Origin: a virus
Strand: one strand, 5' to 3'
DNA: 39,671 bases
Virus record (IMG/VR): IMGVR_UViG_3300033148_006880
Location: 1 to 39,671 of that record
Position 1 is the stretch's first letter. The number at the start of each line of letters is the position of its first letter. The notes under the pieces are model-generated. The model had not been told where the DNA came from and did not search any database. It saw only the letters and a program-made list of their open reading frames with translations. Positions 15,632 through 32,221 of the stretch are shown here, piece after piece. The position numbers and the translations under genes are program-made.

Positions 15632-15674
15632 TTTTTTTATGGAAAAATAATATTTTATGGAAAGAAAAGCAAAA

Positions 15675-15683
15675 ATATATAAA
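15675..15683 (+). promoter_or_regulatory. TATA-box promoter of the portal operon
   Basis: ATATATAAA with A-rich bases upstream is centred 26 nt before the ATG at 15705. This is the spacing expected for a leaderless archaeal mRNA and supports that start over the in-frame ATG at 15657, which would lie upstream of the promoter. Confidence 0.65.
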
Positions 15684-15704
15684 CTATGGTGTGTTATACA
15701 AAAT

Positions 15705-17348: not shown

Positions 17349-17370
17349 GATTAATATAGGAGGTATAAAA

Positions 17371-17817
17371 ATGGAAAGAACAAATCTGAAAGGTAGATTT
17401 CATATCGCAGTTTTGGGCGAAGATGGGGAAGAAAGATCTCATCAAGTAGTTCCAAATACCATAATGAATGCTGGGATAAAAGTAATAACTGGACTAATGT
17501 TGAAAGATGTTGGTGAAGATGCATTTGATTATTTGGCAATTGGCACAGATAATACTGCACCAAATGCTACAGATACGTCTATGGGCGCAGAAAAATATAG
17601 AGTTGAAGGAACAGGTTCTCAAGAAACTGATTCTGTAACAGACGACACTGCAAGATTGACTGGAAGTATTGCAATTACTTCAAGTATAAGTGTTCAAGAA
17701 GCTGGTGTTTTTAATAGTGATTCTGCTGGTGATATGTTAGCAAGAACTACTTTTAGTAGCGTAAGTGTCAATGATGGAGACACTGTAAATATTGGTTATG
17801 ATGTAGTTGTAAGCTAA
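17371..17817 (+). CDS. Tail-associated protein, paralogue B
   Basis: A 148-aa paralogue of 7198-7644 (same length, identical ends, differing in the middle, e.g. SIAITSSISVQEAGVFNSDSAG against SMSITDSNVFAEAGVFNSSS with spacing kept). AGGAGGT lies 6 nt before the ATG. It lies between portal and adhesin genes in the rightward operon. Long identical DNA stretches despite divergent centres suggest gene conversion or recent recombination between copies. Likely a virion surface or fibre-base protein. Confidence 0.75.
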   Translation: MERTNLKGRFHIAVLGEDGEERSHQVVPNTIMNAGIKVITGLMLKDVGEDAFDYLAIGTDNTAPNATDTSMGAEKYRVEGTGSQETDSVTDDTARLTGSIAITSSISVQEAGVFNSDSAGDMLARTTFSSVSVNDGDTVNIGYDVVVS

Positions 17818-17828
17818 TTCCATTGAAA
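17389..17828. repeat. Inverted repeat copy B (partner 7187-7626)
   Basis: Second arm of the inverted repeat described at 7187-7626. Identity includes the coding 5' end, a central block and the last codons plus the intergenic spacer up to the next gene. Homologous recombination between arms would invert about 10 kb. Confidence 0.9.
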
Positions 17829-17832
17829 TAGA

Positions 17833-18771
17833 ATGGCATTAGTCTTAGGAACAAATTGTGGATTTGTATCAGTAGTTCCAAGTGGGGACCCAGAACCACA
17901 ATATACTACAACTATTGATGATTATACTAAAGGTTTTTATGATACAACAACAGATGCAATTACAATTAAAGAAATGGGGTGGTATTGTGAGAATGCAACT
18001 GAAGAAGCTAATTTTGAAGTGGGAATTTTTAGTGATTCTGGAGAGAACTCTCCAGGAGATTTATTATTTTCAGAAACAGTTAATGCAAAAGGCACAGATG
18101 CAGGATGGAAAAGAGTTACAGGATTAAATTGGGAGTTATCAGCTACCACAAAATATTGGTTAGCTGTTCAATTAGATAATGTAAATACAACCACTACGAT
18201 TGGAAGGACTGTTCTACAAGGTCAATCAAGATTTTATAGTGATTCTGGTTCTACATCTTTAGAAGGTCCTGGAAGTATAGGTTCACCAGGTGTTTTATCT
18301 ATTTATGCAGTTTATGAAACAGCAGGAGAAACACACAATATTTCTAAAAGTGATACAACTTCTTTAAGTGATTCTATTTCAATAGAAGCAGATGTATTTT
18401 TAGGAATTTCTGAAACTGATACTCTTTCTTTTTCTGATAGTGTTAAAATAAATTTAGTTACTCAATTTAGTAAAACTGAAACTATTACTCTAACTGATAA
18501 AATTTATTTGGATGCACTTCAAACATTAGGCGTAAGCCAAACTGATACTTTAATTTTAACAGATAAAATTTCAATAATTTCTACAAAGATTTATCCAATT
18601 TCAGAATCAGACACAATAAATTTAAATGATACTGTTTTAATATCAAGAACAGTTGGAATTAAAATAGAAAGAGGAAATATGATGCCTTTTAAAGGAGAGT
18701 ATGCTAAAACAAGAATTGCACAAATGACCAAACCAACTAAAACTTTAATAAATGCAGGAGTAATAGAATGA
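17833..18771 (+). CDS. Repeat-containing surface/fibre protein
   Basis: A 312-aa protein. Residues about 1-165 form a beta-sandwich-like domain (KEMGWYCENATEEANFEVGIFS, WELSATTKYWLAVQLDN), similar to modules in phage and archaeal surface proteins. About residues 170-280 hold five copies of a repeat of roughly 25 residues with the pattern I-S-x-S/T-D-T-x-x-L-S/T-D-x-I/V-x-I. Two weaker copies occur in the hub protein at 3817-7185. The C-terminal 30 residues are basic. It follows paralogue B, as the LamG/hub gene follows paralogue A. Likely receptor-binding or decoration protein. Confidence 0.7.
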   Translation: MALVLGTNCGFVSVVPSGDPEPQYTTTIDDYTKGFYDTTTDAITIKEMGWYCENATEEANFEVGIFSDSGENSPGDLLFSETVNAKGTDAGWKRVTGLNWELSATTKYWLAVQLDNVNTTTTIGRTVLQGQSRFYSDSGSTSLEGPGSIGSPGVLSIYAVYETAGETHNISKSDTTSLSDSISIEADVFLGISETDTLSFSDSVKINLVTQFSKTETITLTDKIYLDALQTLGVSQTDTLILTDKISIISTKIYPISESDTINLNDTVLISRTVGIKIERGNMMPFKGEYAKTRIAQMTKPTKTLINAGVIE

Positions 18772-19001
18772 AAACAGGGAAATATGACTATCCAAATGAT
18801 GTAAGAGAAACTCTCAAGATAGATAGAAGGATAAGAGATGATTTTAATGAATTCTGTAAACTAAAAGGAATAATCAAAAGCAAACTAATTGAAAGGTTTT
18901 ATAGAAATATTCTAATAAGATTTCATGATGGTTCACTTGACGCCTCTGAAGCTAACTTTACCATAAATTTGCTGGCTGGCACGGTTCGCAAGAGCAAGTG
19001 A
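18768..19001 (+). CDS. Small ribbon-helix-helix-like protein
   Basis: A 77-aa protein with RETLKIDRRIRDDFNEFCKL and KSKLIERFYRNIL, matching the strand-helix-helix pattern of small DNA-binding regulators. It starts 4 nt inside the end of the adhesin gene (ATGA) and its last 69 nt overlap the terminase 3' end on the opposite strand. The convergent overlap could mean antisense effects between the two operons. Function is inferred. Confidence 0.6.
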   Translation: MKTGKYDYPNDVRETLKIDRRIRDDFNEFCKLKGIIKSKLIERFYRNILIRFHDGSLDASEANFTINLLAGTVRKSK

Positions 19002-20351
19002 GATTGCACAGTCATCATATTTCCCTGAACTAAATTTCTGTCTTGTTGTTTGTCCCACTCTTAAATCTGTTTTCAAAGTAATTTCAGATAGTTCTTTGAT
19101 TAATTGCTGTGTAAAAGCATAAGCTAAATCATCTTTTGAATTAGGCAAAGAAACTGCTAAATTTTCAAATTCTCTTCGTAAGTCAGTAAGCATATTTAAT
19201 TTTATGTCATAAGTAAATTTTATAATCTCTGCCCCAGCAAATTCTCTTTCTATGTCTCTTGATTGTTGATCTCCTATTCCTGTTCCATCCACTAAACATT
19301 TAACTGGTTTGAAATCTTCATATAATCTTCTAAACTTTTTTAATTGTTCTTCAAATGTATCTCTAAATCTTAATCCTTTGGCTAATCTTTTTCCATCTGC
19401 ATTTACTCCTAAAACAGTCATTACAGTATAATCTCCTTTAGGTGTTCTTGCAATATCATATCCAATATAATATCTTTCATCTTTTCTGCCAAAAGGAAGA
19501 AATCCTTCTTTGTTGGCTAATGCCTTGCTTGTTAATTCAAATGGGAACAAAGAATTTGCTGAACTAATGGGGATTAACATATACTCTTGTGTAAAAGGTA
19601 GTAATCCTAAATCTCTTTTAATTTTTGGAATACTTTTTTGGGTATCTGTATCATAATCTAACATTGTATATTTTTGAGACCATAAGGCTTTTCCATCTTT
19701 TTCTACAGGATATTCTTTAGTAAAATATTCATCGTTTTCTTGTAATTCTGCAAGTAAATCTGATTCAGATTTTTTAGTTCCAATTCCAATTATTCTTCCC
19801 ATCTTTATTTGAATTGCACCTAAAACTGCTGTCCAATAAATAGATTTATCTTCATATTCCCCTAATTCATCTAATAGAATCTCATCTGGGTGCCATGTTC
19901 TTATATTCTCATTATAAGGTTTGCATAAAAATAAACTTCCATTATTTAATTCTAACTCTGTTGCTCTCCAAATCATTTCTCTTGAATCTGGTGCAAATTG
20001 TTTAAGAATTTCATTGTCTAAAATCATACTTCTTATGATCTTTAAAACTTTTTTAGCTTGTGATTCTGTTTTAGAAACAATTAAAATTTCTCTTGGTCCT
20101 TGAAAGATTGCTTTCCATAATTCATAACCTGAAAAGAAATATGTTTTACCTGAACCCCTAAATGCAATAATTCCAACTCTTGGATATTTTTCTGCTAATT
20201 CATACCATTCTCGATGATAATCTGCTATATCAAATCCTAAAACATGTTTAGCAAAAAAAATATAATCTAAATAACAAGCAGATAAGAAATGTTCTATCTT
20301 ATTCTCTGAATAACCATCTGCTTTCTTCAACATGTCTGAAACATTTCTCAT
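18933..20351 (-). CDS. Terminase large subunit
   Basis: A 472-aa DNA-packaging motor. ATPase: Walker A-like IIAFRGSGKT (about residues 61-70) and Walker B ILLDE (158-162). Nuclease domain: GYDIAR (D299), CLVDGTG (D355) and KYDD (D446/D447), the usual three acidic positions of the RNase H-like fold. Length is normal for the family. It starts 2 nt after the stop of a glycosyltransferase and is therefore the last gene of the glycan operon, an unusual placement. Its 3' end overlaps the convergent gene 18768-19001. Confidence 0.92.
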   Translation of the reverse strand: MRNVSDMLKKADGYSENKIEHFLSACYLDYIFFAKHVLGFDIADYHREWYELAEKYPRVGIIAFRGSGKTYFFSGYELWKAIFQGPREILIVSKTESQAKKVLKIIRSMILDNEILKQFAPDSREMIWRATELELNNGSLFLCKPYNENIRTWHPDEILLDELGEYEDKSIYWTAVLGAIQIKMGRIIGIGTKKSESDLLAELQENDEYFTKEYPVEKDGKALWSQKYTMLDYDTDTQKSIPKIKRDLGLLPFTQEYMLIPISSANSLFPFELTSKALANKEGFLPFGRKDERYYIGYDIARTPKGDYTVMTVLGVNADGKRLAKGLRFRDTFEEQLKKFRRLYEDFKPVKCLVDGTGIGDQQSRDIEREFAGAEIIKFTYDIKLNMLTDLRREFENLAVSLPNSKDDLAYAFTQQLIKELSEITLKTDLRVGQTTRQKFSSGKYDDCAISLALANRASQQIYGKVSFRGVK

Positions 20352-20353
20352 TT

Positions 20354-21583
20354 TTATACATTTTCTTCAAATAGCTTTATCCACTGTTTAACTATTAAAT
20401 CCCAATCATAAGTTAATGCAAATTTTCTGCTATCTTCTGACATTTGTTTTAATAGTTTTTTTCCTGTTTTCCAGTCTTTATAATATTTTTCAAGTAATTC
20501 AACTATGTGTTTATCATCTGGAATAAAATTTTCAACTCCATTTGTTCCAAGTATTCCTACTGTTCTTCCATATTTATCTTTTTGCATATCAATTAGTTTG
20601 CCTGTACTTCCTGCTAATTCGGGTCCTGTTGTGTTATTACTCATTAAGATAGGTATTCCTGCTGATTGAGATTCAATTGCTGGCATGCCAAATCCTTCAC
20701 CCCCTGTAGGATACAAATAAACATCCATTAAATTATATATATCATTCATCTCTTTTGGAGAAATTGCTTGTCTTGCGATTATTCCTAAGTTCTCTTGTGT
20801 AAGCATGATCTTTTTACTTTCAAATAAAGATTGATTTGTTTCTCTTTCAAATTTCCAGATAAGTCCATCTATTACGCTGCCTCTTCCTTCTCCACCTGGG
20901 GGAGCAACATCAGTATGCAGCAATAAAACAATGTCATCTTTGTTTTTAGCAAAATTTGCAAAACCTTTAATTAAATAAGGAATCATTTTTCTTGTTTGAT
21001 TTCTTCCAACAAATCCACAAACAAATTTATCATTTATTCCATATCTTATTCTTAGACTCTCTTTATCTGCTTTTGGGAAATATGTTTTTGTATCTACACC
21101 TATTGGAATCATTTGCACATTTGGAACTTTGTTTTTTCTAAAAGTGCTTTCTCCAAATTTTGCCATAGTCAAGTTTATGTCTGCAACCATTAATATTTCA
21201 TCCCAATGTAATGCCCATTGATGACAATCTAATGGACAATACATAATCCATTTTCCACGCCATCCTCTTTTTCTTGCTTCATTTACTCCTTTAATAAAAC
21301 CAGACTGTTTTCCTATATCTGCCATTGTAATCAAAATTTTAGGTTCATATTTTTTTAAATAATAAAAAACAGTATCAAATCCAAAATCTACTTTTGCTCT
21401 TGGAAGTTTAATATAACCTTCTGCTGCTTTATGAGGTCTATCAGTATTCTGCCATCCAACATGATAGAACTCCCAATCAGGTTTTAATTTTACCCATCTT
21501 TTTAATAGATTATCCATTATGTTGCCATACCCTGTAGACATTTTTGTATTATCACTATAGCTTAAAATTCTTATTTTATCCAT
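20354..21583 (-). CDS. Glycosyltransferase, GT-B fold (GT4 family)
   Basis: A 409-aa glycosyltransferase. The N-terminal half has an acceptor-binding Rossmann pattern (ILSYSDNTKMSTGYGNIM). The C-terminal half has the nucleotide-sugar site, VCGFVGRNQTRKMIPYLIKG and PTGGEGFGMPAIESQSAG (E-x7-E type motif of GT4). No signal or membrane span, so it acts in the cytoplasm on a nucleotide-sugar donor. Its start overlaps a 40-aa gene and its stop touches the terminase start. One of three GT4 genes in this cassette. Substrate unknown. Confidence 0.85.
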   Translation of the reverse strand: MDKIRILSYSDNTKMSTGYGNIMDNLLKRWVKLKPDWEFYHVGWQNTDRPHKAAEGYIKLPRAKVDFGFDTVFYYLKKYEPKILITMADIGKQSGFIKGVNEARKRGWRGKWIMYCPLDCHQWALHWDEILMVADINLTMAKFGESTFRKNKVPNVQMIPIGVDTKTYFPKADKESLRIRYGINDKFVCGFVGRNQTRKMIPYLIKGFANFAKNKDDIVLLLHTDVAPPGGEGRGSVIDGLIWKFERETNQSLFESKKIMLTQENLGIIARQAISPKEMNDIYNLMDVYLYPTGGEGFGMPAIESQSAGIPILMSNNTTGPELAGSTGKLIDMQKDKYGRTVGILGTNGVENFIPDDKHIVELLEKYYKDWKTGKKLLKQMSEDSRKFALTYDWDLIVKQWIKLFEENV

Positions 21584-21693
21584 TTTTCAAAATGTTGATT
21601 TAAATTTATATTATCAGGAATCTCTGATTCTTTATAAACTAATCTAATTACTTCTTCCTTTCCTACTTGAGTTAAATCTTCCCAATATATCAT
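21571..21693 (-). CDS. Small hypothetical protein (40 aa)
   Basis: A 40-aa acidic peptide (MIYWEDLTQVGKEEVIRLVY at the start, ending EKWIK). It begins 3 nt after the stop of the methyltransferase and overlaps the next glycosyltransferase start by 13 nt, so the operon spacing supports translation. Possibly a truncated enzyme remnant or a coupling peptide. No family recognised. Confidence 0.5.
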   Translation of the reverse strand: MIYWEDLTQVGKEEVIRLVYKESEIPDNINLNQHFEKWIK

Positions 21694-21696
21694 TTT

Positions 21697-22419
21697 CTAT
21701 TTTCTTGCATGGAAACAGATCCTATGAAATTGATTATATTCAGATACCTGTTGAATATCTTTAAATCCTGCTGCTTTTAACATTGATTCTACAGCTGGAG
21801 GGTTAGGTCCAAAATAAGTGGTTGGGTCATCTACATAACTATCTGGGTCATTTGAATCAAAAATTAATTTCCCATCAGGATAAAAAGCCAAAGCAGGTCT
21901 TTTTACTTCTTTTAAATCTGAATGTGTTTCTAAAATTAGTAATCCACCTTTTTTGGTTATGTCATACATTACTTTGCACATTCCAAAAGGGTCTTCCATG
22001 TGATAAAGTATCCCCAAACAAAGAACTAAATCAAATTCTCCAATTCCTTTTAAGTCCATTACTTCCATTTCTTTGTCTTTAACTTTTGAATTAAGAATTT
22101 TTCTTGCAAAATTAAATCCTTTTTTTCCACTATGATAAAGTTCTGCCCTTTCATTTGCTTTCCAAGTTACTCCTTCTTTCCATTTATGGTTTATACTATC
22201 TACTGCTAAAACATCTGCACCTCTTCTTTCACATTCAAAAGAAAAGAAACCATCCCAAGCTCCTATATCTATTACTGTTTTTCCTTTTAAATTTGCTGGA
22301 AGTTTGATTGTTGCTAATTTTTCCATAGTAAAATCTTCTCCTCTTGTTTTGACTCCATCTAAGTCCATTTTATGCCACCATGTAATTTCTTGCATTTCTT
22401 TTAATTGTTCTGGATTCAT
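21697..22419 (-). CDS. SAM-dependent methyltransferase (CmoB-like class I)
   Basis: A 240-aa class I methyltransferase. Motif I is VIDIGAWDGFFSFECERRGA, with LAVDS at the end of strand 2, FDLVLCLGILYHMEDP for motif IV/V, and GGLLILETH. The pattern resembles CmoB-type and glycan-cluster methyltransferases. In this setting it likely methylates a sugar or a glycan end rather than tRNA. It overlaps the upstream GT4 gene by 4 nt and is followed by the 40-aa gene. Confidence 0.8.
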   Translation of the reverse strand: MNPEQLKEMQEITWWHKMDLDGVKTRGEDFTMEKLATIKLPANLKGKTVIDIGAWDGFFSFECERRGADVLAVDSINHKWKEGVTWKANERAELYHSGKKGFNFARKILNSKVKDKEMEVMDLKGIGEFDLVLCLGILYHMEDPFGMCKVMYDITKKGGLLILETHSDLKEVKRPALAFYPDGKLIFDSNDPDSYVDDPTTYFGPNPPAVESMLKAAGFKDIQQVSEYNQFHRICFHARK

Positions 22420-23486
22420 TTGATTGCCTCAAGAAGTTTGGTTGCTGTTAATTCCCAACTCCAGTTCTTTCTTATACCCTCTGAATTTCTAATTGCTTCT
22501 GGTCTTAAATCCTTTATATGCTCATAAGCTAATCTCATTTGTTTTTTTAAACTATTTAAATCGGGTTCAGCTAACATATTTCCTTCAGCATAAAATCTTT
22601 TATCTCCTTGTTTGACTGTTGGTGCATCTATCCAGAGAACACTATCTTTTCCTTTACAGAAATCCATATGTCCTGAATTTACATCTTTAGTCACAATTAC
22701 TGGCAAACCGCAGGCCATTGCGTTTATTATAGTCAATCCAAATGCTTCACCACGAGTAGGAGATACAAAGCAATCTGCATTTTGATAATATTTTACTAAC
22801 TCTTTTTCTGGAACATATTTATCATTGATTATTATTTTATCATTTGTATGTTTAAGAACTCCAAAAAGTTTTTGGTTGTAATCTATTTTTCCTTCCCAGA
22901 AAGTTCCAATTTTTAAAATAAGTTTTACATCTTCATCTTTGAATTCTTCATCAAATGCTTTAACTAAAAGGTCAGTTCCTTTTCTGTTTCCATCATTTCC
23001 CCAAGAATTAACTGAAAGAAAAGTAAAAGTAGGATTAGTAGGATTAGAATTAGGTTTATAAATTTCTGGATTTGTTCCATAAGGTATTACCTCAATTGGT
23101 CTTATTACATCATTCCATTTAAATAAGTTTTTTGTTGCTTCAGAAGGTGCAAATACTTTCTCAACTCTATTCATTAGTCTGTTCCAACCAGGGATTAATC
23201 TTGTCCCTTCATGCAGAAAAAATCCATAAAGTTTTCCAAATCCTTCATGCCAAAATTGAGGATAATCTGCAAATATTGTAACTAAATCTTTTTGAATTGG
23301 ATTAAAATTAATTGGCATGTTTAAATGGTCTAATCCTTTATTAAAATCATATCCATCATGCCAAATATCCGAACATTGAATTGAAATATCATCTCTTTTT
23401 AAATTAACAATCGCTTTAACTATTTCTCTATTTGCAGTTGATAATCCTGTTGGATTAAATACCACCCCTTTATAAAGAATTTTCAT
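22416..23486 (-). CDS. Glycosyltransferase, GT4 family
   Basis: A 356-aa GT-B glycosyltransferase. N-terminal GVVFNPTGLSTANREIVKAI, the linker IEVIPYGTNPEIY, then FLSVNSWGNDGNRKGTDLLVKAF and PTRGEAFGLTIINAMACGLP, the E-x7-E donor-binding motif, all fit GT4. It overlaps the nuclease gene upstream and the methyltransferase downstream by 4 nt each. Cytoplasmic; substrate not predictable. Confidence 0.85.
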   Translation of the reverse strand: MKILYKGVVFNPTGLSTANREIVKAIVNLKRDDISIQCSDIWHDGYDFNKGLDHLNMPINFNPIQKDLVTIFADYPQFWHEGFGKLYGFFLHEGTRLIPGWNRLMNRVEKVFAPSEATKNLFKWNDVIRPIEVIPYGTNPEIYKPNSNPTNPTFTFLSVNSWGNDGNRKGTDLLVKAFDEEFKDEDVKLILKIGTFWEGKIDYNQKLFGVLKHTNDKIIINDKYVPEKELVKYYQNADCFVSPTRGEAFGLTIINAMACGLPVIVTKDVNSGHMDFCKGKDSVLWIDAPTVKQGDKRFYAEGNMLAEPDLNSLKKQMRLAYEHIKDLRPEAIRNSEGIRKNWSWELTATKLLEAIK

Positions 23487-24118
23487 TTGAACTCCATGAA
23501 TTTTATTAAAAACTTTTTTCTTTTTTTACCAGTAATATCTTCATATTTATCTTGACTTGCAATTAATATCTTGCTAAATATATTATTATCTAAAAGCCAC
23601 TTACATTTAAGTTTTTCTTCTTTAGATAAATAACCATTAGATTTACATTCTATCCCTATAATAATAAAATTAGCATGAAGATGAGTCAAGGGATGCATTG
23701 GTTCTTTAATCCCTTTTGCATAATCAACTTCATAATCATTAATCATTCTTGGATGAGAATATCTATCATGTGGAGATTTATAACCTTTTTTTGATCCTTC
23801 ATACATCATACAAATAAAATCAGGAAATCCTGTGCTTGTTAATCTAAATCTTCCTTGTCTTGCTGGAATTAATTTTCCTTTCAAGATATTTTTACTACAA
23901 ACAACTGGATCCATGAACACACTTTTTTTAATTATCTCATCCTTAGACATTTCTTTTCCAATGGCATTACAGGTTACTTTTACTTCATTAAACTCAACAT
24001 TATTCTGCCACTTAGAAACAATCCATCCTTTAGATTCTAAATCTTTTCTGACTTTTGATTCAAATCTCATTCCTTTTGCTCTACAATATTTTCTGTTTAG
24101 TTTTTGTTTTTTTTCCAT
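23483..24118 (-). CDS. PD-(D/E)XK nuclease, resolvase/VRR-like
   Basis: A 211-aa protein with the core of a PD-(D/E)XK nuclease: GMRFESKVRKDLESKGW (E20), GFPDFICM (P99-D100) and GIECKSNG (E157-x-K159), followed by a helix and IFSKILIAS. The order resembles archaeal Holliday junction resolvases and VRR-NUC proteins, but with a long insert (about 105-150) between D100 and E157, so the assignment is cautious. It may resolve or trim branched viral DNA before packaging. It sits inside the sugar cassette and overlaps the next GT4 gene, so it is co-transcribed with it. Confidence 0.65.
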   Translation of the reverse strand: MEKKQKLNRKYCRAKGMRFESKVRKDLESKGWIVSKWQNNVEFNEVKVTCNAIGKEMSKDEIIKKSVFMDPVVCSKNILKGKLIPARQGRFRLTSTGFPDFICMMYEGSKKGYKSPHDRYSHPRMINDYEVDYAKGIKEPMHPLTHLHANFIIIGIECKSNGYLSKEEKLKCKWLLDNNIFSKILIASQDKYEDITGKKRKKFLIKFMEFK

Positions 24119-24165
24119 CTTTATCTTCTTTTCTTATTCTTTTAAATTTTTGATTATTTATTTTT

Positions 24166-24819
24166 TTAGGTTCTTTTAATTTCATTTGCTTTTTTTAAAT
24201 CTTCTAAAGTATTTATATTAAAATAATCTCCATCTAATTTATGAAATTTTACATCCCCTTTTGGAAATAAGTTTAATACATTTGTAAATTCTTTTGTTCT
24301 TGTTAAATGATAAAATATTGATGGTTTAGCCATGTATATTCCTAATCCAAGTAAAGGTAGTAAATTATTTATATCTTTTGGTTTTTCTATTGCTTTATAA
24401 TCTTTTGTAATTCCATATGAAGGTTTAATCAATTCTTTATCTTTTACTTCTTTAACTCCAAAAAGACATTCAAGATTATAAACTTCAAAATGCTTTTTCA
24501 TTCCATTTAAGTCTCCAAGATAAATTATATCTCCCAAGATAATACAAACATCTTCAGCTACTTTTGCAATAGAAATTGCATTTGCTAATCCTTTTTGTTC
24601 ATTTTGCTGTGTATAAATTAAAGCCAGACCTAAATAATCATCTCCAATCGCTTTTCTAATTGTTTCTCCATGCTGGATTATATACACTTTTTTTATTCCT
24701 AATTCTAAAAAGTTTTGTAAGATATGCTCAATAATTGGTTTTCCATTTACTTTAAAAAGTGCTTTGCATTGATTTCTTATTCTTGTGCCTGCTCCTGCCG
24801 CAGGAATAATTCCAATCAT
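24166..24819 (-). CDS. Sugar-phosphate nucleotidyltransferase
   Basis: A 217-aa nucleotidyltransferase that would activate a sugar phosphate with an NTP. The signature IIPAAGAGTRIRNQCKALFKVNGKPIIE covers the G-x-G-T-R loop and catalytic Lys, and CIILGDIIYLG holds the metal-binding Asp. It is shorter than RmlA or GlmU, with only the catalytic domain. It overlaps the epimerase upstream by 4 nt and probably supplies the nucleotide sugar used by this cassette. Exact sugar unknown. Confidence 0.83.
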   Translation of the reverse strand: MIGIIPAAGAGTRIRNQCKALFKVNGKPIIEHILQNFLELGIKKVYIIQHGETIRKAIGDDYLGLALIYTQQNEQKGLANAISIAKVAEDVCIILGDIIYLGDLNGMKKHFEVYNLECLFGVKEVKDKELIKPSYGITKDYKAIEKPKDINNLLPLLGLGIYMAKPSIFYHLTRTKEFTNVLNLFPKGDVKFHKLDGDYFNINTLEDLKKANEIKRT

Positions 24820-25820
24820 AGTATCTCCTTATTTTCTTGAATCCATTTAGTTATTCTTTTGAGTCCTTCATCTGGAAGAATTTTAGGTTTCCAACCAAAA
24901 TCTTTATATGCTTTTTTATAATCACAAACAAAATAATACATATCTCCAAATCTTTTAGGTTCAAATTTAATATCTTGATTATTTGTCACTTTTAGTTTAG
25001 TTAAACATTCTCCTAATGAAATAGAATTTTCCATTCCACCACCAATGTTATAAATTCCTGTTTTTCCTTTTTGATACCACATTTCAAATGCTCTTGCTAC
25101 ATCTTCTGCGTATAGAATATCTCTTACTTGTTTGTCTGTTCCAAATATTGTAATTGGTTTGTTCATTATGGTTCTAATTGCAAAGTTTGCTACCCATCCA
25201 TGATTCATCCCACCAAATTGCCTTTCTCCATACATTCCTGTTAATCTAAAAGAGGCAGTTCTTATTTTGTAAGTTTCTGCATAAGTTTGAGTGTATAATT
25301 CTGTTGCTCTTTTGCTTACATGCAAAGGAGTTAAATCTCCATCCAGGATTGGTCTATCTTCATCAAATTCTGGTTCATAACTTTCAAATCTTGTTTCTTT
25401 TTCTATTAAACCTTCATTTCCTTCATTTCCATAAACATGAATTGTTGAACAATTAACAAAAGGTATTTTTAATTTTCTTGCAACTTCTAACATACAAACT
25501 GTTCCTTTAATGTTATTATCCATATCATAATAAGGATGTTCAATAGCTAAAGTCATAGCTGGTTGTGCAGCACAATGAATTATAAAATCGACATCAAAAT
25601 CTGAAGGAAGAACCATCCTACAATCTTGTTTTCTAAATTCTACACCTATTTTTTTGAGAAAATCTAAATTATGCTTTCTTACTTTTTCTGCATCATATTC
25701 CTTGCTTAATTCAAAATCTGTTAGATTATCAATTCCAACAACTTCCCACTTTTTCTTTTTAAAATAATCTGCTACATGAGTTCCTAAAAATCCTGCCACT
25801 CCTGTAATTAAAACCCTCAT
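24816..25820 (-). CDS. NAD-dependent sugar epimerase/dehydratase (SDR), catalytic Tyr replaced
   Basis: A 334-aa extended SDR. The Rossmann loop G7-x-x-G10-x-x-G13 (ITGVAGFLGTH), HCAAQPAMTLA, a long specificity region and DKQVRDILYAEDVARA resemble CDP-paratose 2-epimerase-like enzymes. The usual YxxxK active site is LxxxK here: LHVSK, residues 166-170, with Lys170 kept and Tyr replaced by Leu. The enzyme may use another base or do a different reaction. It sits between the B12 radical-SAM enzyme and the nucleotidyltransferase, with 4-nt overlaps to both. Confidence 0.78.
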   Translation of the reverse strand: MRVLITGVAGFLGTHVADYFKKKKWEVVGIDNLTDFELSKEYDAEKVRKHNLDFLKKIGVEFRKQDCRMVLPSDFDVDFIIHCAAQPAMTLAIEHPYYDMDNNIKGTVCMLEVARKLKIPFVNCSTIHVYGNEGNEGLIEKETRFESYEPEFDEDRPILDGDLTPLHVSKRATELYTQTYAETYKIRTASFRLTGMYGERQFGGMNHGWVANFAIRTIMNKPITIFGTDKQVRDILYAEDVARAFEMWYQKGKTGIYNIGGGMENSISLGECLTKLKVTNNQDIKFEPKRFGDMYYFVCDYKKAYKDFGWKPKILPDEGLKRITKWIQENKEIL

Positions 25821-27055
25821 ATTGTTATTGCCTCCATTTCATCTCTATTTTTTATTTCTAAATCTTTAAAATATCCCATTTTTATAAATTTTTTTTGAAT
25901 TAATCTTAATTCTTCTTCACTAAAGTCACATAAAGGAATTGGTGTTCTAAAGAAATTTAATTGTGAAAAATCTACATCTGGTTTTTCTTTTAAATCTTCC
26001 CACATCTTTGTTCCAGGAAGAGGAGTAGTGATACAAACCCCTACACCCCCATCTATATCATTTTCTGTAATGAATTTTCTTGTTTTGTTTAAATCTTCTA
26101 ATGTTTCTCCAGGCCCACCAATCATAACAGTTCCATTTGCCTTTATTCCAGCTTCTCTGCAAAGTTTAATTGAATCTTCATTTTGTTTGACTGTCACTTG
26201 TTTGTTATAAATATCTAACATTCTTTGACTTCCACTTTCCCATCCAAAAGTAATTTGATAACAACCAGCATTTTTTGCAATTTTTAAAGTTTTTATATCT
26301 ATATTATTTACTCTTGAATTTGCACCCCAAACTATGTTTATTCTTTTTTCAATAAGCAATTTACTAATATTAATTACTCTCTCTTTATTAACAAAAAAAT
26401 TATCTTCTATAAAGAATATTGCGTTTACTTGATATTTTTCAATTAGATATTCTATTTCTTTGACTGTTCTTTCTGGAGAATTAGCTCTATACTTTAAATT
26501 TTTGAAAGAATTATGACAGAAAGTGCAATTATAAGGACAACCCCTACTCGTAAGAATATTTGCAATTCTTTTCCCAACAATCTTTAAAAGTGGTGTTTGT
26601 TTAAAATAAAATTCCATATGAACTAAATCATAAGCAGGAATAGGAATTTCATCTAAGTCATTTATTATTTCTCCTTTGATTATTCCTGTTAAATTTTCAT
26701 CAATTATCTTTTTAAATGCTTTTTCTCCTTCTCCTACCACAACTGCATCTGCGTGTTCTAATGCCTCTTTGGGTCTAATTGACGCATGAACTCCACCAAT
26801 GACTACTTTACAACCAAGTGATTTTGCATAATCTGCACAATTATAACAATCTTCACTTGTGGGTGTGGTTCCTGTTACTCCCACTATATCTGGTTTAATA
26901 ACAGACAAATCAAGTAAGTTGTCTCCTGCTACTCTGTCTAAAATTTTTATGTTAGGATAAAATTGTCTTAAATATGCTGCAAGAATTGTTAAGCCTGTTG
27001 GCTGGGCTCCAGGATACATAAATTCATTCGTTGGGTTTACTAATACGATACGCAT
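25817..27055 (-). CDS. B12-binding-domain radical SAM enzyme
   Basis: A 412-aa protein. Residues 1-130 look like a cobalamin-binding Rossmann domain (RIVLVNPTNEFMYPGAQPTG, DIVGVTGTT, VVIGGVHASIRP, ADAVVVGEGE). The radical SAM domain follows with C173-x3-C177-x2-C180 in SRGCPYNCTFC, FIEDNFFV, and AGCYQITFGWESGSQRMLD. Such enzymes methylate or rearrange unactivated carbons, often in lipid, glycan or secondary metabolism. The gene overlaps the GT4 gene upstream by 32 nt. It likely makes an unusual sugar or lipid modification. Substrate unknown. Confidence 0.85.
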   Translation of the reverse strand: MRIVLVNPTNEFMYPGAQPTGLTILAAYLRQFYPNIKILDRVAGDNLLDLSVIKPDIVGVTGTTPTSEDCYNCADYAKSLGCKVVIGGVHASIRPKEALEHADAVVVGEGEKAFKKIIDENLTGIIKGEIINDLDEIPIPAYDLVHMEFYFKQTPLLKIVGKRIANILTSRGCPYNCTFCHNSFKNLKYRANSPERTVKEIEYLIEKYQVNAIFFIEDNFFVNKERVINISKLLIEKRINIVWGANSRVNNIDIKTLKIAKNAGCYQITFGWESGSQRMLDIYNKQVTVKQNEDSIKLCREAGIKANGTVMIGGPGETLEDLNKTRKFITENDIDGGVGVCITTPLPGTKMWEDLKEKPDVDFSQLNFFRTPIPLCDFSEEELRLIQKKFIKMGYFKDLEIKNRDEMEAITI

Positions 27056-28049
27056 TAAACACCTCCAACATTTTTTCTGAAAATTTATCCCAAGAAAGAT
27101 TATCTTTTACCCATTTTGAATTTTCTGCTCTTTTATTTTCTTTTTCTTCTAAAATATACTTAACAAAATCGTCATCTGTTTTGCAAACATATCCTACATC
27201 ATTTTCAACGAATACTGAACTACAAGTTGCTTCTTCACTTATAAAGACTGGCAAACCAGCACTCATAGCTTCAAAAGGGCTTAACCAACTGCCTTGAGAT
27301 TTAACTGGGAAAATCGCAGCATGACATTTGTGATATAATACCTTAACATTTTCTCTATCTGAGAAATCTATTATCTCAATATCAGATTTAAGATTATATT
27401 CCTCTATTTTGGCTCTAACTTGATTTAGGTAACTTGTTGCTTTTCCAACTAACTTTAATTTTGCATTTGGGATTTTTTCTTTTAATTTTTTGAATATTTC
27501 AATAGTTCTTAATTGATTTTTATTATCTGCTATAAAACCAACTTGAATTAATGTAAAATCATCAAATTTCTTTGTATTTTGTTTTTTAAAAAATTCATAA
27601 TCAATTCCATAATGAATTATTTTACTGTCTACATTATAAAGTTTATCTATTCTTTCTTTGTTGAATTGGTCTGCAACAATTACTTTGAAATTTTTAACCA
27701 TTTGTTTTTCTAAGTCTTTTGGTTCTGGATTTTGTAAATGTGGTGGTTCATTGCACATCCAGACTACTTTTGCTCTTCGAGGATAAGTCATCATATATCC
27801 TGGTTCATTGTGAATATTTATTACATCAAAATCTGGGATAATCTCTTGCACAAAGTAATTTAAGTGTTCAAGACTATCACATTTGATTATCCTTGCTTCT
27901 TTTAAGGCATTTCTAACTTCATCACATAATTCATAACAAATAATTGAAACTTCATGATGTTTATCAGTCAAATAGTTTGCTAATTTGACAATTACTCTTT
28001 CTGCACCACCATATATCCACAAACTTGGGTTTATGATAAGAATTTTCAT
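27024..28049 (-). CDS. Glycosyltransferase, GT4 family
   Basis: A 341-aa GT-B glycosyltransferase. The N-terminus ILIINPSLWIYGGAERVIVKLANYL is the classic GGAE acceptor loop of GT4. The middle has KIIHYGIDYEFF and TLIQVGFIADNKNQ, and the donor site is WLSPFEAMSAGLP, with the first Glu of the usual E-x7-E motif not obvious. Cytoplasmic. First intact glycosyltransferase of the leftward cassette; a broken methyltransferase gene and two hairpins lie upstream. Confidence 0.83.
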   Translation of the reverse strand: MKILIINPSLWIYGGAERVIVKLANYLTDKHHEVSIICYELCDEVRNALKEARIIKCDSLEHLNYFVQEIIPDFDVINIHNEPGYMMTYPRRAKVVWMCNEPPHLQNPEPKDLEKQMVKNFKVIVADQFNKERIDKLYNVDSKIIHYGIDYEFFKKQNTKKFDDFTLIQVGFIADNKNQLRTIEIFKKLKEKIPNAKLKLVGKATSYLNQVRAKIEEYNLKSDIEIIDFSDRENVKVLYHKCHAAIFPVKSQGSWLSPFEAMSAGLPVFISEEATCSSVFVENDVGYVCKTDDDFVKYILEEKENKRAENSKWVKDNLSWDKFSEKMLEVFNAYRISKPNE

Positions 28050-28067
28050 ATAATTATCGCAAGGATA

Positions 28068-28104
28068 CCCATGCTTTTAAGCTTGGGAGGAATTGCGAAC
28101 CTCC
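28068..28104. repeat. Two tandem hairpins at the 3' border of the broken methyltransferase
   Basis: Hairpin 1 (28068-28087) is CCCATGC-TTTTAA-GCTTGGG with one mismatch. Hairpin 2 (28086-28104) is GGAGG-AATTGCGAA-CCTCC, followed by T6 on the plus strand. The context AAGGATACCC just before is repeated as AAGATACCC at 28597. Such paired hairpins resemble ends of IS200/IS605-type elements, though no transposase is present. Confidence 0.55.
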
Positions 28105-28590
28105 TTTTTTAGTTTAACAAACATTAAATCTTTAGGTAGATTAAGTTTCCAACAAAACCAAGCAACTTGAAACCAAGCACCACTTCCTTTTCCTGAAGGA
28201 GTTATAAAATTTATCCTCTTGTTTGGAATAATTAATTGTATCCCATATTTTCTCTAATGCCGTTAAAGGAAGAAGTAATGCAAAGGGTTTTCCTAATTCA
28301 TAACACTTTCTCAAAAACTCTTCTTTAAGTGAATATGGAGGATTAGTTACAATGCAATCCCAATTCTTATTATCCCATTTAGAGTTTAAAAAATCCTCAA
28401 CCAACCCTATAACTTTCAAATCTTTTTCTTTATTCTCTTTTAGGTGTTTTGCTAAACTTCCTTTCCCCCAAGCACATTCCCAAATAGTCCAGCCTTCCTT
28501 TAAAAATGGAAGGAGAGGTTGTATTGCTTCCTTTGGAGTATAAAACTCATCTGGTCTTCCATTACTTTGTATTTGTAGTTTTTTTACCAT
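28077..28590 (-). pseudogene. Adenine DNA methyltransferase-like gene, frameshifted
   Basis: The intact part (from 28590) has DEFYTPKEAIQPLLPFLK, an SAM-binding-like WECAWGKGSLAKHL, and the catalytic motif CIVTNPPYSLKEEFLRKC, then FALLLPLTALE. After that the frame runs into KIWDTINYSKQED and stops at 28141. The +1 frame instead continues the family sequence: RKYGIQLIIPNKRINF, then TPSGKGSGAWFQVAW up to a stop at 28077. A small deletion after TALE (near 28250) therefore broke the gene. The 149-aa product might still be made but lacks the native C-terminus. Flanked by similar hairpin repeats at 28062-28104 and 28597-28623. Confidence 0.7.
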
Positions 28591-28594
28591 TTTC

Positions 28595-28623
28595 TTTAAG
28601 ATACCCTACCCTTTAGGATGTGG
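28595..28623. repeat. Imperfect direct repeat of the 28062 hairpin
   Basis: AAGATACCC-tac-CCTTTAGG-atg-TGGGA aligns with AAGGATACCC-atg-CTTTTAAG-c-TTGGGA at 28061-28088 and can form an imperfect CCC/GGG hairpin. It lies in the short gap between the radical-SAM gene and the broken methyltransferase, so that gene is flanked by two such repeats. Confidence 0.4.
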
Positions 28624-28630
28624 GAATATG

Positions 28631-29743
28631 TCATTTAAACAAAATGCACCTCTCACAAGCTTTATTTGGATGAATATAATCTTCCCAAAATTCATTTATA
28701 TCATTTTTTATAAGATTTCCAATAGAAGTCTCTCTCTGCCAGGGTCTATCGTTCTGTTCATTCATAGAACAACAATTTATCATAGTTCCATCAACAAAAA
28801 CAAAAGGCATTGTCCAGGCAGTGCAGTCTGTTTTGGGGATTGTTGGTGAAACAGTATCAACATTGAATGTAGCAATTAATCCTAAACTTTGTGCATGTTT
28901 TACTACATTCTTTTTTTCTTCTTCTGAGAGAGTTGTAATTTTATCTTTTATTTCTTTATAACCATGTAAAACCAAAGTAAACTGAACTTTTTTTACATCT
29001 ATATTTAAATTATCTATCATATCTAAATATTTTATCATTTCATGTTTGTTTTCTTTGCTTACAATGAAATGAAACCAAATTTCTGGAAAATAAGAATTTT
29101 TCTCTTTTTTATATGAATCTAAATATTTGATATTTCTAATTACTTTATCCCATTTGGCATTTACTCTAATTTTTTCATAAGTCTCTTTTGTTCCTGCATC
29201 TAAACTTACATATATTTTATCCATGCTTAAATCTACCATCTGTTTCATTTGTTCATCAGTTATAAAACTAAAGCTATCAAAATTCTCAACATAGATTCCT
29301 TTCTTTTTGATATACTCTAACATTTTAGGATATTCTGGATTACAATAAGATTCTCCAATTCCAGTCAAACCAATCCATTTAAGCTGGGGAAATTGGTCCA
29401 CTATCTTTTTAAAATCTTTGAAACTCATGTTCTTACTTTTCTCTTTCCAGTAAGTATGCTCGCACATAGAACATTTTAAATTGCAAACTGTAGAAACTTC
29501 AATTTCCATATAATGAGCTTGCATCTTCTTTTTGTAAAGAAATCTAATTAATTCTGGGTTCTGAGTCCAATATAATGTTCTAAAGTGAGTCCAATTATAA
29601 GTCCACTTTAATCCTTTCTTTTGATATACTGGAGAAATAAGATACTGTCTAAATGCTTCATTCGCTATTTCTGTTTCAATTTTATCTATTTCTTTGTCTG
29701 GGTGCATCCCACCGCGCATTTGATAATCTATAAAAGTATTCAT
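28631..29743 (-). CDS. Radical SAM protein with SPASM-like C-terminus
   Basis: A 370-aa radical SAM enzyme. The ATG at 29743 (MNTFIDYQMRGG) overlaps the stop of the preceding membrane-protein gene (ATGA) and has AGGAGG 11 nt upstream; a longer in-frame start would lie inside that gene. The [4Fe-4S] motif is C87-x3-C91-x2-C94 (STVCNLKCSMC), followed by IGLTGIGESYCNPEYPKMLEYI. The C-terminus has further cysteines (DCTAWTMPFVFVDGTMINCC and ACERC), typical of an auxiliary-cluster SPASM-type domain used in peptide, sugar or cofactor modification. Substrate unknown. Probably part of the surface-modification cassette. Confidence 0.83.
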   Translation of the reverse strand: MNTFIDYQMRGGMHPDKEIDKIETEIANEAFRQYLISPVYQKKGLKWTYNWTHFRTLYWTQNPELIRFLYKKKMQAHYMEIEVSTVCNLKCSMCEHTYWKEKSKNMSFKDFKKIVDQFPQLKWIGLTGIGESYCNPEYPKMLEYIKKKGIYVENFDSFSFITDEQMKQMVDLSMDKIYVSLDAGTKETYEKIRVNAKWDKVIRNIKYLDSYKKEKNSYFPEIWFHFIVSKENKHEMIKYLDMIDNLNIDVKKVQFTLVLHGYKEIKDKITTLSEEEKKNVVKHAQSLGLIATFNVDTVSPTIPKTDCTAWTMPFVFVDGTMINCCSMNEQNDRPWQRETSIGNLIKNDINEFWEDYIHPNKACERCILFK

Positions 29744-29877
29744 AAAAAACTCATTCCTCCTTTTAGTACCATCGCAAAAAATAAAATAGTTGTCCACCAT
29801 GCCCATCCAAAAGCAATTAAGATTATAGATATGCAAATTAGATCTAATGCCCCCATGATTGCACTTAGAATGTTCAT
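29740..29877 (-). CDS. Small membrane protein (45 aa)
   Basis: A 45-aa, almost wholly hydrophobic protein (MNILSAIMGALDLICISIIL then IAFGWAWWTTILFFAMVL), long enough for two short membrane helices. Its ATG overlaps the stop of the GMD-like gene and its TGA overlaps the radical-SAM start, so it is translationally coupled on both sides. May anchor or assist the modification enzymes at the membrane. No family recognised. Confidence 0.62.
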   Translation of the reverse strand: MNILSAIMGALDLICISIILIAFGWAWWTTILFFAMVLKGGMSFL

Positions 29878-30818
29878 TTATTTCTCCAATAATTTAGTAA
29901 ATCTAATAAAGTTTGTTCTATTGGGATTTGGGGTTTCCAACCTGTTTTTTCATAGAATTTTGTGTTATCTCCTAATAAGACAGGTAAATCACTTGGTCTT
30001 AACCGACTTGGATCTTTTATTAATTGAATGTTTATTTTACTGTAGGATAATAATTTTTTTAGTATATTCTTAATTGGATAAGCTTTACTTGAACAGATAT
30101 TATAAACTTCACCTGGTTCTCCTTTCTCTAAAGCTAACCAATAACCTTTTACCATATCTCTAACATCAGTAAAATCTCTTTCTGCATCTAAATTTCCAAC
30201 TTTGATTATCAGACTCTTTCTATCTTTTTCTATATCTGCAATTTGTTTTGCAAAAGTGGAACAAACAAAAACTTCTCCTCTTCTGGGTCCAGTATGGTTG
30301 AATCCTCTGGTTCTTACGATGTGCATGCCATAAGACTTAAAATATTGAAATGCAAGCAAATCTTGAGCAACTTTTGAAACACCATAAGGAGATAATGGTA
30401 ATAATTCTGTATCTTCTTTGATTGGCATCTCTTTTGCGTGTCCATATTCTTCAGAACTCCCAGCAATTTGTATTCTTGGTTTGTAATTGGGAATAGATCT
30501 TACAGCTTCAAATAAATTTAATTCTCCTATAATATTAGTATAAAGTGTGTGAGAAGGTTCAGTCCAAGATGCTTTTACGAAGGATTGAGCAGCTAAATGA
30601 AAAATATAGTCTGGTTTGACTTTTTTGATTATATCCCTAAAAGCAAATGCATCAGTTATATCACATTCATGGAGTATTAAAGAATTTTCTATTTCTTTGA
30701 TATTTTCTATCTGGCTTCGCCATCTTACTGTGCCATGAACTTCTGCTCCTTTAGATAATGCATACTCTGCTAAATGACTCCCACAAAATCCCGAGATGCC
30801 TGTCACCAAAACTTTCAT
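29874..30818 (-). CDS. gmd: GDP-mannose 4,6-dehydratase-like SDR
   Basis: A 314-aa extended SDR. NAD(P) loop TGISGFCGSH, catalytic Y145-x3-K149 in PYGVSK with GSSEEYG for the Ser/Thr part, and FNHTGPRRGEVFV plus VGNLDAERDFTDVRDMVKGY, the GMD/RMD-family signature. GMD makes GDP-4-keto-6-deoxymannose, the precursor of deoxy-sugars such as fucose, rhamnose or talose; RMD or GDP-talose enzymes are alternatives. It overlaps the thermosome gene by 4 nt. It probably feeds the glycosyltransferases downstream. Confidence 0.8.
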   Translation of the reverse strand: MKVLVTGISGFCGSHLAEYALSKGAEVHGTVRWRSQIENIKEIENSLILHECDITDAFAFRDIIKKVKPDYIFHLAAQSFVKASWTEPSHTLYTNIIGELNLFEAVRSIPNYKPRIQIAGSSEEYGHAKEMPIKEDTELLPLSPYGVSKVAQDLLAFQYFKSYGMHIVRTRGFNHTGPRRGEVFVCSTFAKQIADIEKDRKSLIIKVGNLDAERDFTDVRDMVKGYWLALEKGEPGEVYNICSSKAYPIKNILKKLLSYSKINIQLIKDPSRLRPSDLPVLLGDNTKFYEKTGWKPQIPIEQTLLDLLNYWRNK

Positions 30819-32221
30819 TTTTTTTCTCCAATTAGTAATTTATCTGTTTTGAGTATTAAATTTGCAACATTTGTAGCAGAGTTGATTGCATGAATTTTAA
30901 CTAAAACTGGTTCGACTATTCCTCTTTCTTTTGCATCTGAAAATCCACCAACAGTATTCATATCTACACCTAAATTTGGATTCTCTTTGTGCATTGTTTT
31001 AAGTAAAGTCAAAACCTGAATTGAATCAAGCCCACAATTTTCAGCAATTATTAAAGGAATAGACTCTAAACTTTCAGCAAATTTTTCTATAGCGAGTTGT
31101 TCTTTTCCTCCAATCGATTCTGCAATTCTGTATAAATGATTAGCTAATTCAATTTCTATTGCTCCTGCGCCGATTACTTGGTCTATATTGTGTTTCAACA
31201 AAGAGATTACATCATGAACTGCTCTTTCTATTTCATCTAAAGTTTGGATTGTAGGCCCTTTTAAGACTAAAGTTTCATAATCTCCATAAACATAGATTTG
31301 ATTTGGTTTTTTATATTTTATTTTTCCTTCAGTAGAATAAATATTATCTATATTAGAAGTAGCTATTATGTTTAATGCTTTGCAAATTCCATCTATATTT
31401 TCTCTTTGGATTATTACTATTCCTGTAATCCCTTTTTCTGTTAAATAACTTTCAAATTCTGGGTTTGTATCTGTATAAAACAAACAATCAATTTTTTGTT
31501 CAACTAATTTATCTACTATTTCTCTTTTATATTTTCTGTCATACAAATTCATTTCTTCCAAACCTTTAGCAGAATTGACTTGCACATTACTTGCTTCCAC
31601 ATTAGTTCGATAATCTAAAACTGCAATTTTTCCAGAAACTTCATCTTTCATACGTTCATTTAGAGTAAATCCATCGAAAACATATCCTTTAAAAATTTCA
31701 GACTTAATTGGGTCAGAATTAGGCAATTTATGAATTTTTAGATTTTCAAAATCTTTTACCTTTAAAATCAAACTTTTTAGAATATTTACTAAATCTTTTG
31801 AAATTTTAGAACCAAATGCAGTTTCAATAATTTTTTGTTTATCTCCTTTTTCTTTTAATTCTCCAAGTAGTTTGATTGATTCTATTTTAGCAAGTGAATA
31901 TCCATTCATGATTGTAGTTGGGTGAATTCCTCTATTAAGCAATGTTAAAGCATTGTCTAACAATTGTCCAGAAAGAATTACAGCAGTAGAAGTTCCGTCG
32001 CCTATTGCTTCATCTTGACTTTTTGCTAATTCTTTAAATAAATTGACTATTGGATCGTCTATGTTTATTTTGTTTATTATTGTATATCCATCATTTGTAA
32101 AGATTGTATGTTTGTCTATTACAGCTTTATTCATTCCGCGCGGTCCAAGTGTAGACCTAATCAAATCGCAGAAATTTACTGCTGCCTGTATATGTGCATA
32201 TTTATTTTCTTCCAATTTCAT
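30815..32221 (-). CDS. Group II chaperonin (thermosome) subunit, viral
   Basis: A 468-aa thermosome/CCT-family chaperonin, shorter than the usual 520-550. Nucleotide-site motifs are present: RSTLGPRGMNKAV (22-34), TNDGYTI (42-48), AIGDGTSTAV (72-81), VIGAGAIEIELA, and near the end NTVGGFSDAKERGIVEPVLV. The canonical GDGTT is GDGTS and GGGAIE is GAGAIE. Both termini are trimmed, including the usual Gly/Met-rich C-terminal tail. Archaeal thermosomes fold cytosolic proteins in a ring; a viral copy could fold capsid or tail proteins, by analogy with phage GroEL-like proteins. It overlaps the MT-A70 gene by 20 nt and the GMD gene by 4 nt. Confidence 0.88.
   Translation of the reverse strand: MKLEENKYAHIQAAVNFCDLIRSTLGPRGMNKAVIDKHTIFTNDGYTIINKINIDDPIVNLFKELAKSQDEAIGDGTSTAVILSGQLLDNALTLLNRGIHPTTIMNGYSLAKIESIKLLGELKEKGDKQKIIETAFGSKISKDLVNILKSLILKVKDFENLKIHKLPNSDPIKSEIFKGYVFDGFTLNERMKDEVSGKIAVLDYRTNVEASNVQVNSAKGLEEMNLYDRKYKREIVDKLVEQKIDCLFYTDTNPEFESYLTEKGITGIVIIQRENIDGICKALNIIATSNIDNIYSTEGKIKYKKPNQIYVYGDYETLVLKGPTIQTLDEIERAVHDVISLLKHNIDQVIGAGAIEIELANHLYRIAESIGGKEQLAIEKFAESLESIPLIIAENCGLDSIQVLTLLKTMHKENPNLGVDMNTVGGFSDAKERGIVEPVLVKIHAINSATNVANLILKTDKLLIGEKK

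Follow-up and report, generated by a model that had tools for sequence, protein, structure and literature searches.

The 39,671-bp IMG/VR virus record IMGVR_UViG_3300033148_006880, analysed here over its full length and called the window, carries a minus-strand gene block running from 33,379 down to 18,933, in which genes for sugar metabolism and glycosyl transfer are enclosed between a group II chaperonin and the large terminase subunit (TerL). In the direction of transcription, the chaperonin is followed by a short-chain dehydrogenase/reductase (SDR) of the RMD/GMD type, a SPASM-type radical S-adenosylmethionine (SAM) enzyme, a short open reading frame (ORF) resembling a DNA methylase, and the GT4 glycosyltransferase (GT) GT27024. 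The order continues with a B12-binding radical SAM enzyme, a second SDR, a nucleotidyltransferase, a PD-(D/E)XK-like nuclease, GT22416, a methyltransferase, GT20354 and TerL; capsid, portal, tail and tape-measure genes come after this block. Our main point is that the locus is polymorphic and does not hold one fixed gene set. The features on which the argument draws are as follows.

18933-20351, minus: TerL, large terminase subunit, downstream edge of the locus (Terminase_6N 2.1e-7, also 6C; PHROG 38 2.8e-39)
20354-21583, minus: GT20354, GT4-like glycosyltransferase of the GT-B type, 2-nt gap to TerL (Glycos_transf_1 1.4e-11)
21697-22419, minus: class I SAM-dependent methyltransferase, candidate glycan methylase (Methyltransf_9/23; TIGR04290 84.7 bits, cut-off 300)
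22416-23486, minus: GT22416, second conserved GT4 (Glyco_trans_1_4 4.6e-16)
23483-24118, minus: PD-(D/E)XK-like nuclease, boundary of the variable cassette (no Pfam match; motif by eye, GTGFPDF...IGVEVKSNGYL in relatives; same position in 6 relatives)
24166-24819, minus: sugar-1-phosphate nucleotidyltransferase, cassette A (NTP_transferase 1e-11; best NCBIfam AglF, 90 bits, cut-off 400)
24816-25820, minus: extended SDR without the catalytic Tyr (TPLHxSK), cassette A (Epimerase 1e-43)
25817-27055, minus: radical SAM enzyme with a B12-binding domain, cassette A (Radical_SAM 2.5e-27, B12-binding 6.5e-15)
27024-28049, minus: GT27024, third GT4, cassette A (Glycos_transf_1 1.6e-23)
28141-28590, minus: short adenine-specific DNA methylase-like ORF inserted in the cassette (N6_Mtase/EcoRI_methylase below cut-off; homologues elsewhere in the related contigs G004 and G009)
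28631-29743, minus: SPASM/Twitch-type radical SAM enzyme, cassette A (Radical_SAM 8.4e-15; ORF listed to 29836 from a TTG)
29874-30818, minus: GMD/RMD-family SDR, closest to RMD (GDP_Man_Dehyd 1.9e-84)
30815-32221, minus: viral group II chaperonin, upstream edge of the locus (Cpn60_TCP1 1.8e-96; thermosome-type in the PDB; 47-76% identical in relatives)
1978-2667, minus: exported adhesin-like protein, candidate N-glycosylated acceptor (N-terminal hydrophobic signal; sequon excess)
864-1997, minus: exported Cys-rich adhesin-like protein, possible acceptor (N-terminal signal)
17833-18771, plus: decoration/fibre-like protein (C-terminal motif common to proteins encoded between both GT genes in four relatives)

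An initial annotation of the window had described the stretch 18933-30818 as a viral glycan cassette coupled to the terminase. The genes that it named are present where it placed them or close by and match the expected families in Pfam, and the physical linkage of the cassette to the terminase was borne out. The block is real over that stretch but goes on upstream into the chaperonin, and the gene list had passed over the PD-(D/E)XK-like nuclease and the DNA-methylase fragment. Tight packing with 4-nt overlaps was found at four junctions within 18933-30818 and at the GMD/chaperonin junction at the edge, whereas the remaining cassette junctions are gaps of 2-130 nt or one 32-nt overlap. On the far side of the chaperonin, positions 32202-33065 encode an MT-A70-type methyltransferase fused to a DUF3102 region.

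Searching with a TerL profile brought up 24 related loci of uncultured tailed viruses, 52-86% identical and bearing many metagenome identifiers. GT20354 lies immediately upstream of TerL in all 24, with a small insert in a few, and GT22416 lies upstream of GT20354 in every relative whose sequence reaches that far. The methyltransferase cluster (c3) is represented among the ORFs of 15 relatives and is absent in some. Contigs that were followed further carry the chaperonin upstream of this frame and portal and capsid genes downstream of it, and homologues of the RMD/GMD-type SDR (64-80% identical) stand directly downstream of the chaperonin. The frame consists of the chaperonin, often the RMD/GMD-type SDR, GT22416, often the methyltransferase, GT20354 and TerL. 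Because this order repeats in many independent contigs, a chance arrangement can be ruled out. A host chromosomal island misassembled beside viral genes, the one scenario that the initial annotation had named as fatal to it, might be suspected from the chromosomal homologues of the cassette genes, but its probability is close to nil: the junctions from chaperonin through cassette, GT, TerL and portal to capsid are the same in many contigs with different metagenome identifiers, and GC is equally low along the whole window. Since relatives from many metagenomes have the same frame, we exclude it, and the cassette is viral.

The chaperonin, about 468 amino acids long against about 545 in cellular thermosomes, matches Cpn60_TCP1 over its whole length and occurs in every close-family relative reaching this far. 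No full-length relative was found in 50,697 phage records, and of the cellular matches listed, setting aside one likely viral contig, the best reaches 33% identity. Among the packaging genes, the portal (15657-17348) is inverted relative to TerL and the capsid genes in the window and in the relatives G001 and G002, and not in other relatives. The TerL ORF reaches about 753 amino acids in L020 (G007:16043-18304) and L029; L008 is the same virus as G007, and there the first match is followed by another to the C-terminus of TerL, which suggests an insertion or partial duplication.

Comparison of slot contents by ORF clustering revealed that the middle of the locus can be nearly empty or occupied by one of at least three gene sets unrelated to each other. 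The initial annotation had proposed checking whether related viruses carry the same set: the GT pair by TerL is universal, whereas the genes for the radical SAM enzymes, the SDR and the nucleotidyltransferase form just one of several sets that can be exchanged. This set A, ordered SPASM enzyme, GT, B12/radical SAM enzyme, SDR and nucleotidyltransferase, was found in the window, L032/L033, L040, L122, L123 and L125, with a small NrdG-like activase replacing the B12/radical SAM enzyme in L032, L033 and L040. Divergent viruses have it too, namely L122, L123 (TerL only 34% identical) and L125, and so does L124, which is without this TerL. Set B comprises a GT2-like enzyme, a radical SAM enzyme, the unassigned protein c8, a cytidylyltransferase, a LicD-like protein and a SPASM enzyme, with a thiamine pyrophosphate (TPP) enzyme plus aminotransferase, a split transketolase or a TylF-type methyltransferase as optional genes; it is carried by G001, G002, G007, G009, G010, L027, L028, L031 and others. 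Set C combines a different B12/radical SAM enzyme with an SDR and a GT in G003, L029 and G004, except that G003 is without the SDR and the G004 contig starts inside the set. The slot is nearly empty in L034 (one GHMP kinase) and L041. These module relatives came from searches with TerL and the B12/radical SAM enzyme; a single-protein scan of viral contigs with the SPASM enzyme, whose relatives are less than about 62% identical, gave no match.

Placed on a TerL tree, the module labels require 9 changes against a mean of 9.8 for shuffled labels, and a value as low arose in 72 of 200 shuffles. The window, with set A, clusters at full support with two set B viruses, G001 and G002; the tree is a quick one with a long outgroup branch (L123), of which this trio is independent. 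Module type is independent of terminase phylogeny, and the modules are swapped. Free-standing ORFs for nucleases of HNH-like (NUMOD-like) and PD-(D/E)XK-like type recur at the module boundaries (G001, G002, G003, G007, G009, G010, L027, L030 and others) and would offer a possible means of exchange.

Within module A, the second SDR had been described as epimerase-like. It belongs to the Epimerase family, but the catalytic Tyr of YxxxK expected of an extended-SDR epimerase is missing: T-P-L-H-x-S-K is invariant in 10/10 viral and cellular homologues, with L166/H167 in place of the Tyr. Its best PDB relative is CDP-tyvelose 2-epimerase, to whose PYGCSK it aligns; its structural model, with a predicted local distance difference test (pLDDT) score of 71, was left out of the fold search. 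Both radical SAM enzymes combine CxxxCxxC with PF04055. The one called SPASM-like matches Radical_SAM, although the SPASM domain itself scores 20.0 bits, under the 21.5 cut-off; its best PDB relative is BtrN. The CxxxCxxC motif and the C-terminal Cys residues are kept in 6/6 of its homologues, which start at the ATG equivalent to 29743, and the listed TTG start is probably wrong. Homologues of the B12/radical SAM enzyme (47-56% identical) occur in four other viral contigs; of those aligned, just the copy at L125:7020-8279 lacks the middle Cys of CxxxCxxC (CPYKYTFC). The best PDB relative of the window's B12/radical SAM enzyme is AprD4, annotated as an apramycin biosynthetic oxidoreductase, and AprD4-like proteins also match. 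An AprD4/AprD3-like deoxygenation by the B12/radical SAM enzyme and the SDR was considered, but its cluster motif is different and BchE/HpnJ models give higher scores, and we did not adopt it. That the B12-type enzyme yields a methylated or rearranged sugar is putative and unproven.

Several archaeal chromosomes also gave strong matches to a profile of the SPASM enzyme. Three genomes, all of one archaeal phylum, have the SPASM, GT, SDR and nucleotidyltransferase genes side by side, collinear or permuted, in glycan loci from which the B12/radical SAM enzyme is absent. Wzx-type flippases are present in two of these three loci (L148 and L150), and in L150 AglB lies about 7 kb off; that genome holds five STT3/AglB genes, which makes the nearness of AglB moderate evidence by itself. 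The cellular SDRs are 49-56% identical to that of the window and have the same odd active site. Module A was apparently derived from archaeal surface-glycan loci, judging by these gene neighbourhoods. The SPASM matches do not tie the donor to the phylum of Pacearchaeota (best match 5e-102), because another archaeal phylum gave closer ones (1e-148); a third gave none over the limit.

The host itself is probably archaeal, given the group II chaperonin and the archaeal donors. A 4.6-kb contig in a Pacearchaeota metagenome-assembled genome (L046, JAFCDK010000046.1) is a fragment of a related virus, with up to 89% identity and the order chaperonin, RMD-like SDR, split TPP enzyme and start of an aminotransferase; it is the closest cellular chaperonin match, and weakly suggests a host that is possibly DPANN. 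A search of 371 genomes of the phylum of Pacearchaeota returned distant TerLs only, and a scan of genome contigs with the TerL profile, confined to two narrow patterns, detected no provirus.

Of the frame enzymes, GT20354 is a retaining GT4 of GT-B fold with EX7E intact in 28/28, and is related to the chlorovirus protein B736L. Among solved structures the latter (3oy2) comes closest to GT20354, both in the profile search (2e-14) and in fold (Foldseek E 7e-21, template modelling (TM) score 0.79, model pLDDT 90), at an identity of only 18%. GT22416 has EX7N in place of EX7E in 23 of 24 sequences, and GT27024 has QX7E in seven of eight and QX7D in the other. The SDR next to the chaperonin had been taken for a GMD-like dehydratase; it is a member of the GMD/RMD family, but RMD is nearer, as the PDB search gave 2pk3 (RMD, GDP-4-keto-6-deoxymannose reductase) at E=5e-85 and the best GMD at 1.5e-49, and its 201 bits do not reach the GMD equivalog cut-off of 415 bits. 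In chloroviruses, GMD makes GDP-D-rhamnose and B736L has been proposed as its transferase (PMC4691112). The presence here of both an RMD-like enzyme and a B736L-like GT is a parallel with this system, though no proof.

Candidate acceptors were sought among the viral proteins by counting N-x-S/T sequons against composition-preserving shuffles. The adhesins at 864-2667 had been called sequon-rich, and 1978-2667 bears this out (7 against about 2.1 expected, p about 0.005), but 864-1997 taken by itself does not (8 against about 5.7, p about 0.2). At the left edge, the ORF at 1-774 carries 11 against 4.6 expected (p 0.005); it starts 90 nt past the stop of 864-1997, and the two ORFs could be parts of one gene broken by a frameshift. 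In four viruses, eight adhesin-like proteins taken as exported contain 123 sequons against 57.4 expected (2.1x, z 10), a set picked by eye among signal-bearing proteins, leaving out short acidic membrane proteins without sequons and counting 1-774, in which no signal was detected, for its position. The reversed motif in this set occurs 48 times against 57.9 expected, and shifted motifs are also without excess; 12 signal-less tail and head proteins have 92 against 92.9 (0.99x). When all signal-like proteins are taken, 116 sequons stand against 57.7 (ratio 2.0), and proteins without hydrophobic segments give 0.96. On these counts the exported viral proteins are probably N-glycosylated, and the host AglB is invoked because no STT3/AglB was found in 12 viral contigs, the search being positive in three cellular comparison genomes. 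This excess does not tie the cassette to that glycan.

ORFs with at least four hydrophobic segments are only tape-measure-looking proteins; with STT3/AglB absent from the viral contigs too, the acceptor would be reached in the cytoplasm or host machinery would be used. The capsid protein of the window has no sequon excess (2 against 3.5 expected), and glycosylation sites in chloroviruses are not standard sequons (PMC4691112). Proteins of LamG or other type with a shared C-terminal motif are encoded between both GT genes in G010, L034, L031 and L040, three of the four with Laminin_G_3, and the window protein at 17833-18771 has the same motif. The motif was seeded from four of its six matches; only L040 is independent (E 0.008), and L042 copies that of L031. 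Because these proteins adjoin the GT genes and the window protein shares their motif, decoration proteins are the other acceptor candidate. Elsewhere in the tail block, a DUF559/Vsr-like endonuclease with a NUMOD3 motif occupies 9948-10589. A 148-aa tail-fibre-like gene is duplicated in inverted orientation (7187-7649 and 17366-17828), with arms 78-93% complementary and about 10 kb apart around the capsid/tail block, which could permit inversion or gene conversion.

With predicted nucleotide-sugar enzymes and GTs on a viral genome, the locus falls in the class of virus-encoded glycan biosynthesis loci. We favour the reading that virus-made proteins are the target of this modular viral glycan locus, with a probability of roughly 0.5. 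The nucleotidyltransferase would activate a sugar phosphate, the SDR and the radical SAM enzymes would turn the activated sugar into an unusual deoxy or otherwise altered sugar, and the RMD-like SDR would supply a GDP-6-deoxyhexose. The GTs would assemble these sugars into a short glycan in the cytoplasm, which could be placed directly on virion decoration proteins, on exported adhesins through the lipid carrier, flippase and AglB of the host, or on both. A module swap would then alter the coat presented to receptors, hosts and competitors. More tentatively, and at somewhat below even odds, the locus may be an O-antigen-like polymorphic glycan locus of archaeal tailed viruses, in which whole sugar pathways, among them radical SAM chemistry acquired from archaeal N-glycan loci, are swapped between conserved flanks, switching the glycan of virus or host, and type A makes a new sugar through the radical SAM pair and the Tyr-less SDR.

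Several observations weigh against glycosylation of virus-made proteins by this locus. The SDR has no catalytic Tyr, and both GT22416 and GT27024 are off the EX7E consensus. GT20354 is kept in L034 and L041, where the sugar module is almost absent, and so need not use the module product. The sequon excess may just be ordinary host N-glycosylation of any exported protein; the acceptor, the sugars, their expression and the benefit are all predictions. The cellular homologues in surface-glycan loci fit modification of the host surface equally well, and the main rival builds on this: the cassette would change the lipid-linked or S-layer glycan of the host during infection, mask the receptor and exclude superinfecting viruses, as serotype-converting phages do. 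The grouping of module A genes in cellular loci by flippases, and once by AglB, speaks for such a conversion, as do the GT4 enzymes and the NCBIfam matches of AglF/Agl16 type, which score far below cut-off; both are typical of the assembly of lipid-linked glycans. The viruses, without flippase or oligosaccharyltransferase, would borrow those of the host, and module swapping suits receptor arms races. However, no integrase or lysogeny gene was recognised in the virus, the searches described above gave no provirus, the conserved GTs sit in the packaging/head region, and the nearest structure to GT20354 belongs to a viral GT that published work connects with capsid glycans. We consider this conversion possible but on the unlikely side.

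Passive cargo is improbable. Homing nucleases at the slot edges would gain and lose sugar genes by chance, with no consistent function, in keeping with the HNH-like and PD-(D/E)XK-like ORFs at module edges in many relatives and the quick turnover of slot content; yet ORFs and catalytic motifs are preserved across divergent viruses, the same five-gene set recurs as a unit, and the flanking GTs are universal. About as improbable, and rejected here, is that the GTs glycosylate modified viral bases as protection against restriction. GTs and DNA methylases, including the MT-A70 type, are close together, and phage DNA glycosylation is established and also finds mention in PMC4691112, but the thymidylate synthase/hydroxymethylase family (PF00303) was found in 0/12 viral contigs with positive controls, known base-glucosylation sets are much simpler than the sugar modules, and the cellular homologues of the module genes sit in surface-glycan loci.

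The favoured reading, a modular viral glycan locus, has a close counterpart in the chloroviruses PBCV-1 and NY2A, which glycosylate their own capsid with virus-encoded nucleotide-sugar enzymes, among them a GMD with reductase activity, and GTs, including a methyltransferase joined to GTs (PMC4691112). The two systems are alike in an RMD/GMD-type enzyme with an expected GDP-6-deoxyhexose product and in B736L, the solved structure nearest to GT20354. They differ in that the present virus is tailed, has a far smaller genome, and carries radical SAM enzymes and a locus for whole-module swaps. Among bacteriophages, Pontimonas phage phiPsal1 has a GT-methyltransferase-GT arrangement among its head genes, and Tetrasphaera phage TJE1 a nucleotidyltransferase, an epimerase, a methyltransferase and a GT upstream of terL; unlike here, the stretches compared in these two phages have no radical SAM enzyme or chaperonin annotated. 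Mycobacteriophages with proposed capsid GTs are a further case. To our knowledge, such phage GT/methyltransferase sets have no recorded case of alternative modules replacing one another at a fixed slot.

Archaeal Agl-type N-glycosylation and surface-polysaccharide loci share the block of SPASM, GT, SDR and nucleotidyltransferase genes, with flippase and AglB nearby in archaea; the virus has neither of the latter and adds the B12/radical SAM enzyme and the frame genes. Bacterial O-antigen and capsule loci likewise have conserved flanks and swapped central sugar genes, and module B resembles them in its LicD and cytidylyltransferase genes, but the present locus is viral, without polymerase or flippase, and tied to packaging genes. 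In a survey of archaeal tailed viruses, the main text contains no mention of glycos-, sugar, epimerase or radical SAM (PMC8651126). If our reading is correct, small archaeal tailed viruses own a modular glycan-changing system, and archaeal surface-glycan genes are common to viruses and chromosomes; so far, virus-made glycans have been best documented in giant algal viruses, and exchangeable sugar loci in bacterial capsules.

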